Assembly (NCBI GenBank): GCA_903858115.1
Contig: CAIOHR010000058.1
Location: forward strand, 167,303 to 231,302
Direction: 5' to 3'
From: an uncultured Pirellula sp.
Lineage (GTDB): Bacteria; Planctomycetota; Planctomycetia; Pirellulales; Pirellulaceae
Length of the DNA stretch: 64,000 nt
Every line of letters begins with the position of its first letter. Positions within the stretch are counted from its first letter, which is position 1. The position numbers were made by a program, and so were the translations under genes. Under the pieces are notes generated by a model, which did not search any database, was not told where the DNA came from, and saw nothing but the letters and a program-made list of their open reading frames with translations. Shown here one piece after another: positions 40,323-41,113 of the stretch.

Positions 40323-40410
40323 CTCAACAGTCTTAAGCATCAGGCGAAAATCGGTTTGGAACATCACAACCCGCAGCGTGAGTTTTGAAGTTGCGCGTCA
40401 TTATGGTTTT

Positions 40411-40496
40411 CGGGCCAAAGGCCCAACCATTTGCATAGCCCAGGCTGAAGGCCTGGGAAACGAAACAAAACAAATCCCTTAGGGCCAACGGCCCGA
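40411..40496. repeat. Left hairpin array flanking the transposase
   Basis: GGGCCAAAGGCCC, GCCCAGGCTGAAGGCCTGGG, AGGGCCAACGGCCC in order. Confidence 0.9.
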
Positions 40497-40500
40497 CCGT

Positions 40501-40977
40501 TTGATGAAAAGGCGCTTTGACATGCCACAGTCCCTCGCCCAAGTTTGGCTCCACCTCGTCTTTTCTACCAAGGAACGTCGCCCGTTTTTGAATAACGAGG
40601 AGTTTCAAATTGAAATGTTTCGGATGTTATCGCATCATGTCAAAGAAGCCGGTTGTGTGAGCGCCTCTGTTGGTGGACACATTGATCATGTCCATTTACT
40701 GGTCGGCTTATCACGAACAATCACGATCGCAAAGTTAGTCGAGAAAATCAAAACAGAGACATCGACGTGGGCGAAAACCAAAGAGACTTGCTCGTCCACA
40801 TTCAGTTGGCAATCGGGCTATGGCGTATTCTCGGTTGGCCACTCTAACCGAAATGCCGTGGACGAATACATTAGGAATCAACGAGAGCACCATCACAAAT
40901 CATCATTCCAAGATGAGTTCCGTGAATTATGCAAACAACATGATATCGAAATTGACGAACGTTACGCTTGGGATTGA
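40501..40977 (+). mobile_element. IS200/IS605-like Y1 transposase (RAYT-like)
   Basis: 158 aa; MPQSLAQVWLHLVFSTKERRPFL, HUH motif GHIDHVHLLVGL, downstream Tyr in NAVDEYIRNQREHH; probable start 40522. Confidence 0.9.
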
Positions 40978-40993
40978 ATCCGATGCAAATGGG

Positions 40994-41080
40994 CGGGCCG
41001 TTGGCCCTATTGGACAATCTAAGGAACGATTACCCAGGCCTTCCGCCTGGGCTAGGTAAACATAGGGCCTTTGGCCCGGA
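40994..41080. repeat. Right hairpin array, mirror image of 40411-40496
   Basis: GGGCCGTTGGCCC, CCCAGGCCTTCCGCCTGGGC, GGGCCTTTGGCCC: reverse complements of the left hairpins in mirrored order. Confidence 0.9.
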
Positions 41081-41113
41081 AAAACAAATCCGGCCCGAAG
41101 GCCTTTCAGTGTC

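Follow-up and report, generated by a model that had tools for sequence, protein, structure and literature searches.

A Subclass 1.2 TnpA_Y1 Gene between Mirrored Three-Hairpin Arms in a Pirellula Genome: A Probable REPIN/RAYT-Like System of a New Type

Introduction

The described systems closest to the locus studied here are the RAYT (TnpA_REP) proteins with their REP and REPIN sequences, the IS200/IS605 insertion sequences, the TIRtrons, and subclass 1.2 of the TnpA_Y1 proteins. In Quentin et al. 2018 (PMC6006769), subclass 1.2 was entered as 'REP: no', was described as generally devoid of IS200 terminal structures, and was found mostly in Cyanobacteria and Bacteroidetes. The REP search published there required GTAG or GTGG. 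A 2021 paper on TnpA_REP does not mention subclasses, and the open-access literature yielded nothing on arms at subclass 1.2 genes, although a subscription paper or an ISfinder entry could exist.

Here, we analyzed a stretch of 64,000 nucleotides (the window) from an uncultured Pirellula sp., whose genome comprises 7.89 Mb in 445 contigs. The window contains an element which probably belongs to a new type of REPIN/RAYT-like system, as a copy that carries the gene of the driving protein, a TnpA_Y1 of subclass 1.2.

Results

Layout of the Element

The Y1/HUH transposase gene of the window lies between mirrored three-hairpin arms, which extend over positions 40412–40494 and 40995–41077 (Table 1). 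The first-pass annotation had described mirror-image three-hairpin arrays with one mismatch in the middle hairpin; this description holds, the mismatch being a single loop position in H2'. The interval that it assigned, 40411–41080, is close to the element, but the outer left end and a block of about 99% identity common to the window and a sister species, which extends to about 41104, lie beyond it. An alternative upstream TTG start of the transposase ORF is located at 40501.

Table 1. Features of the element in the window.
Feature	Position	Strand	Observation
Resident palindromic repeat remnant AACCCGCAGCGTGAG, adjoining the element; probable target	40368–40382	+	Related AACCCGAMGCGTRAG abuts elements in L008 and L181; uninterrupted copy in L281
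Outer left end TTTTGAAGTTGCGC; gene-less copies have it as a terminal inverted repeat	40383–40396	+	Borders several dimers on either outer side in inverted orientation; a similar sequence occurs in a further arm family
Left arm H1, short hairpin GGGCCAAAGGCCC	40412–40424	+	
Linker TTTGCATAG with N[TC]AG foot of H2	40430–40438	+	Ten arms share TTT, C and TAG without change; N[TC]AG also present in families that are unrelated
Left arm H2, long hairpin CCCAGGCTGAAGGCCTGGG	40439–40457	+	
Left arm H3, short hairpin GGGCCAACGGCCC	40482–40494	+	
TnpA_Y1 transposase, assigned to subclass 1.2, 151 aa	40522–40977	+	Pfam PF01797 (1.6e-23), NF033573, motifs, tree
Right arm H3'	40995–41007	-	Reverse complement of H3
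Right arm H2'	41033–41051	-	Reverse complement of H2, one loop mismatch
Right arm linker, reverse complement TTTACCTAG	41052–41060	-	
Right arm H1'	41065–41077	-	Reverse complement of H1

The hairpin sequence GGGCCNNNGGCCC occurs at 9 sites in the 7.89-Mb genome, four of them at the window element, and CCAGGCNNNNNGCCTGG at 5 sites, two of them at this element, while the reversed patterns of both gave no site in the same genome. Clearly, the concentration of hairpins at the window element is well beyond chance. A right-hand copy of the outer end TTTTGAAGTTGCGC was not found in the window, the element having the left end only. Without an outer TTTTGAAG end on its right side, the window copy may be immobile.

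Class of the Transposase

The window protein matches the Pfam Y1_Tnp profile and scores above the cut-off of the NCBIfam IS200/IS605 equivalog NF033573, and the PDB relatives of the family profile are ISDra2, ISHp608 and related IS200-type proteins. Such matches would suit an ordinary IS200/IS605 insertion sequence with subterminal hairpins. However, the protein carries the signature of subclass 1.2 (DHVH, WQ and YIRNQREHH), with the HUH residues H56/H58, the catalytic Y116, the Y--NQ--HH motif, and the C-terminal DERYAWD. The pattern Y--xQ--HH is kept in 135 of 141 relatives. The length of 151 aa and the conserved tail DERYVW[DE] both fit the subclass 1.2 traits of about 148 aa and a specific tail. 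The motif of IS200/IS605 subclass 1.1, Y[IV]ENQ without HH, does not fit, as HH is present, and the Y---NP motif of RAYT (class 2 TnpA_REP) is absent from the protein, which has YIRNQREHH instead. Moreover, in a tree of the 141 relatives, four IS200 references and E. coli RayT, a branch separated the subclass 1.2 rows from the IS200 references (SH-aLRT 88 and 86), which, with so small a reference set, supports rather than proves the class assignment.

The host genome encodes three paralogues with 35–41% identity to the window protein, that is, few and divergent copies. A near-identical second copy of the gene was not found in this genome, the next best match being at 41%. Among the ORFs neighboring the transposase gene, no TnpB was recognized. 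As judged from its motifs, the window protein is a TnpA_Y1 of subclass 1.2, neither an ordinary IS200 transposase nor a class 2 RAYT, and the label 'IS200/RAYT-like' of the first-pass annotation finds no support as a class. Together with the inverted orientation of the window arms and their absence in mirrored form from same-order IS200 genes (see below), these properties largely refute the ordinary IS200/IS605 explanation, which we regard as most improbable.

Mirrored Arms at Subclass 1.2 Genes of Several Phyla

When flanks were analyzed with one pipeline, mirrored arms were detected at 87 of 137 subclass 1.2 genes drawn from several phyla, at 0 of 9 IS200 subclass 1.1 genes drawn from the same order, and at 3 of 23 other Y1 genes, a set that is mostly class 2 but includes two members (L336 and L345) that are probably not. 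A unit of a short and a long hairpin was present at 56/137, 2/9 and 0/23 of these genes, respectively, and the same unit with a [TC]AG foot at 41/137, 0/9 and 0/23. About one-third of the subclass 1.2 genes had no mirrored arms above the threshold. Usable flanks were available for 76 named loci; the left flank matched the inverted right flank at 53 of them and the direct right flank at 22, a match being a score above the 99th percentile of cross-gene controls. The arms at 87 of the 137 genes contradict the published trait of no REPs and no IS200 terminal structures; they are a point of difference from subclass 1.2 as published, not a protein feature that defines it.

The stems change completely between genes, while the grammar of the arm stays constant: a short hairpin, a linker of about 12 nt often ending in N[TC]AG, a long hairpin, about 25 nt, and a short hairpin. 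Among 96 short–long units from 65 genes, the linker length peaks at 12 nt and 58 linkers end in N[TC]AG right before the long hairpin, whereas GTAG is found at the hairpin foot in 7. At long hairpins near the genes, N[TC]AG was present on the 5' side in 75 of 207 cases and on the mirrored 3' side in 29 of 207; at long hairpins 700–2500 bp from the genes, it was present in 7 of 92. This tetranucleotide occupies the position that GTAG has in REPs, and since GTAG or GTGG was required in the published search, most N[TC]AG units would have been missed there. The L003 family does not have the [TC]AG foot (0 of 11 CCGGTGG hairpins).

The stems of the window family covary, with 98.9% of cells paired and four pairs changed on both sides. 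Folded as single-stranded DNA, a whole dimer is far more stable than its shuffles (z −9.9), while single arms deviate only modestly (z −2.2 and −2.3), and in their minimum-energy fold H1 pairs with H3 around H2.

In Bacteroidota, most copies of the GCCCTGAAAGGGC hairpin lie together at the gene and few are found at a distance, and we do not claim strong dispersal there. Around a subclass 1.2 gene of one such genome (L095, G061:C8:54118-56406), GCCCTGAAAGGGC hairpins form a stacked local array.

Each Gene with Its Own Palindromes

Each of the four subclass 1.2 genes of the host genome is flanked by its own distinct palindromes, and arm similarity drops as protein distance grows (Mantel rho −0.33, p 0.001). 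Orthologues of the window gene with 99% and 70% identity retain the arms. Strong window-type arms were present in 3 of 3 genomes with an orthologue of at least 70% identity and in 4 of 57 others (p 0.001), and the L003 palindrome in 6 of 8 genomes that have a gene of the L003 clade (at least 60% identity) and in 2 of 52 others (Fisher 1.5e-5; reversed-pattern controls 0), both p values being subject to cut-offs chosen after the data were seen and to the non-independence of the genomes.

In one of the genomes counted as being without an L003-clade gene (G036), a partial Y1_Tnp match adjoins CCGGTGGC palindromes (L340, G036:C1:3494623-3495000). For the paralogue L004, GATCCCNNNGGGATC was considered as a marker and rejected, being too short and present in 34 of 60 genomes; six of its eight copies in the host genome cluster at the L004 gene.

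These associations bear on the possibility that the arms belong to a MITE family which another transposase moves, and that tnpA was captured between two of its copies. Four genomes (G012, G021, G022 and G024) carry arms without a detected close orthologue, and outer TTTTGA[AT]GTTGC ends are found in two arm families, as such a capture would allow. It does not account, however, for four genes of one genome each having palindromes of their own, for the recurrence of the arm grammar around subclass 1.2 genes in several phyla, or for the divergence of the arms along with the protein, and it is thus very unlikely. A partnership of each gene with its own palindrome family remains the preferred reading.

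Gene-Less Dimers

The first-pass annotation had proposed a search of the genome for complete arms without a transposase. The host genome contains two such complete left-arm/right-arm dimers, L008 and L009 (G000:C350 and C262), as well as a single arm close to the end of a 1.7-kb contig (L012), and further dimers were found in relatives. With a covariance model of the arm, for which host-genome copies were part of the input, we counted 7 arms in the host genome, 28 in G021, 28 in G022, 10 in G024, 8 in G012, at least 66 in G032, and only 2 in the sister species G023. Among the 46 strong matches listed for five genomes (the host, G012, G021, G022 and G024), 34 are arranged as 17 pairs that face each other, mostly with 13 nt between the model ends, and 16 of these pairs enclose no transposase; there was one back-to-back pair and no tandem pair. 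Dimer sequences were also obtained from G012, G021, G022 and G032. Gene-less dimers exist in other families as well: at G000:C133 for L002 and at G002:C1 for L003.

Four loci searched against Rfam families gave no match. Other DNA matches in the host genome beyond the arm loci (e.g., L016, L036, L044 and L046) were discarded as short chance matches. In G032, the 70% orthologue (L048, G032:C1:2075454-2077312) is surrounded by long arrays of arm units instead of by a single pair. In G021 and G022, which carry about 28 arms each, relatives of the transposase are interrupted by stop codons (L211 on G021:C5 and L055 on G022:C60), and the hairpins flanking them differ from the window type.

The dimer of C262 is missing at the syntenic site of the sister species (G023:C123), where the joined flanks are 91% and 89% identical. 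In the alignment, the six-hairpin element is present in the host only, and the remaining spacer has also diverged. At the window site, in turn, the element is present in both species. Between the window and G023:C75, positions 40383–41104 show 7 differences in 721 positions, while the flanks show 219 in 2280 (9.6%); fourfold sites differ at 0 of 59 in the transposase gene and at 19 of 101 and 59 of 228 in neighboring genes. As the element is near-identical amid diverged flanks, simple common descent is insufficient to explain its distribution; an exchange in the recent past, or more than one insertion into this site, fits.

Discrete gene-less copies that contain both arms and the same linkers, one of them absent from the orthologous site, also bear on a different interpretation, namely that the arms are fixed regulatory or structural DNA or RNA of the gene, controlling translation or the transcript, and that the scattered dimers are unrelated palindromic repeats. 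The left H3 does lie close upstream of the ATG, and the structured, regulatory tnpA mRNA of Salmonella IS200 (PMC12594629) provides a precedent. Nevertheless, mirrored downstream arms are not needed for gene control, and we consider this interpretation unlikely. The gene-less pairs, the retention of arms at orthologues, and the mirrored arms that separate subclass 1.2 from true IS200 bear out the REP/REPIN-like organization suggested by the first-pass annotation. It had named clustering with ordinary IS200, with arms absent elsewhere or not conserved around orthologues, as the contrary outcome; the protein does lie on the IS200 side of the family, but arms are present at other sites as well and are retained at orthologues.

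Element Ends and Target

In two arm families, the common end of the dimers is TTTTGA[AT]GTTGCRC, in inverted orientation. Several of them sit between the AAG and CTT halves of other palindromic repeats such as AACCCGAMGCGTRAG, as if they had been inserted into hairpin-forming repeats. A resident MITE-like palindromic repeat, GGCTTGTTGC...ACAACCCGAAGCGTGAGCGAGGGA...TCCCTCGCTTACGCGTCGGGTT, was observed in L281 (G023:C73, about 500–640), in the flanks of L008 and in L181, and seems to be the landing place of six-hairpin dimers. An assignment of TTTTGAAGTTGC to the target instead of the element was considered; no uninterrupted copy was found among the loci retrieved.

Discussion

In the mechanism that we propose, the transposase would sit between two inverted copies of its own composite three-hairpin recognition arm. 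By analogy with TnpA_REP, which reads GTAG at the foot of the REP, the protein most likely binds, in single-stranded DNA, the long hairpin together with the N[TC]AG at its 5' foot. Cleavage via Tyr116 would follow, and whole inverted arm pairs would then be moved or copied, either with the gene, as at the window locus, or without it, as in the scattered six-hairpin dimers, the destination often being another palindromic repeat. Such movement may continue at present.

More broadly, the data tip slightly in favor of subclass 1.2 TnpA_Y1 proteins driving a widespread second REPIN-like world, of IS200-side origin, with a tripartite hairpin unit that is read at its N[TC]AG foot and cognate stems that change rapidly, in Planctomycetota, Verrucomicrobiota, Bacteroidota, Acidobacteriota and others. 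This would provide a partner sequence and a likely role for a protein subclass that had been classified but left without a function, and would place REPIN-like organization outside the class 2 RAYTs. As the protein remains alignable while the stems diverge completely, these loci offer a natural set of graded cases in which the reading of hairpins by HUH proteins can be studied. Many unnamed palindromic repeats of planctomycete and verrucomicrobial genomes could also be explained.

Among known systems, RAYT/TnpA_REP with REPs or REPINs (E. coli rayT, Pseudomonas REPINs) likewise has a Y1/HUH protein flanked by inverted hairpin units, dispersed gene-less inverted dimers, a palindrome family for each gene, and a tag at the 5' foot of the hairpin, comparable to the N[TC]AG of many, though not all, arm families. 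It differs in the protein, which is class 2 (Y---NP) in RAYT and, by its motifs, class 1.2 (Y--NQ--HH) in the window, in the unit (one hairpin against three), and in the foot (GTAG or GTGG against N[TC]AG); moreover, the copy numbers of window-type systems are mostly low. The IS200/IS605 elements ISHp608 and ISDra2 share an HUH/Tyr core of about 150 aa and hairpins near the ends. However, the hairpins of IS200 subclass 1.1 are non-inverted at LE and RE, whereas the window arms mirror each other with three hairpins each, and the window system has non-autonomous dimers and occupies a separate branch. TIRtrons (TIRYT, PMC3733652) also have a Y1 gene between long inverted repeats, some of which recur as dimers in the genome, but their proteins are mostly class 2.1 with HTH tails, their TIR motif is GGGGWSAS, and they have no three-hairpin grammar; the motif of the window protein rules out its membership in TIRYT. 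With subclass 1.2 as published (PMC6006769), the window protein shares motifs, length, the specific C-terminal tail and low numbers of divergent copies per genome, the difference being that here the subclass has arms and is common in Planctomycetota and Verrucomicrobiota.
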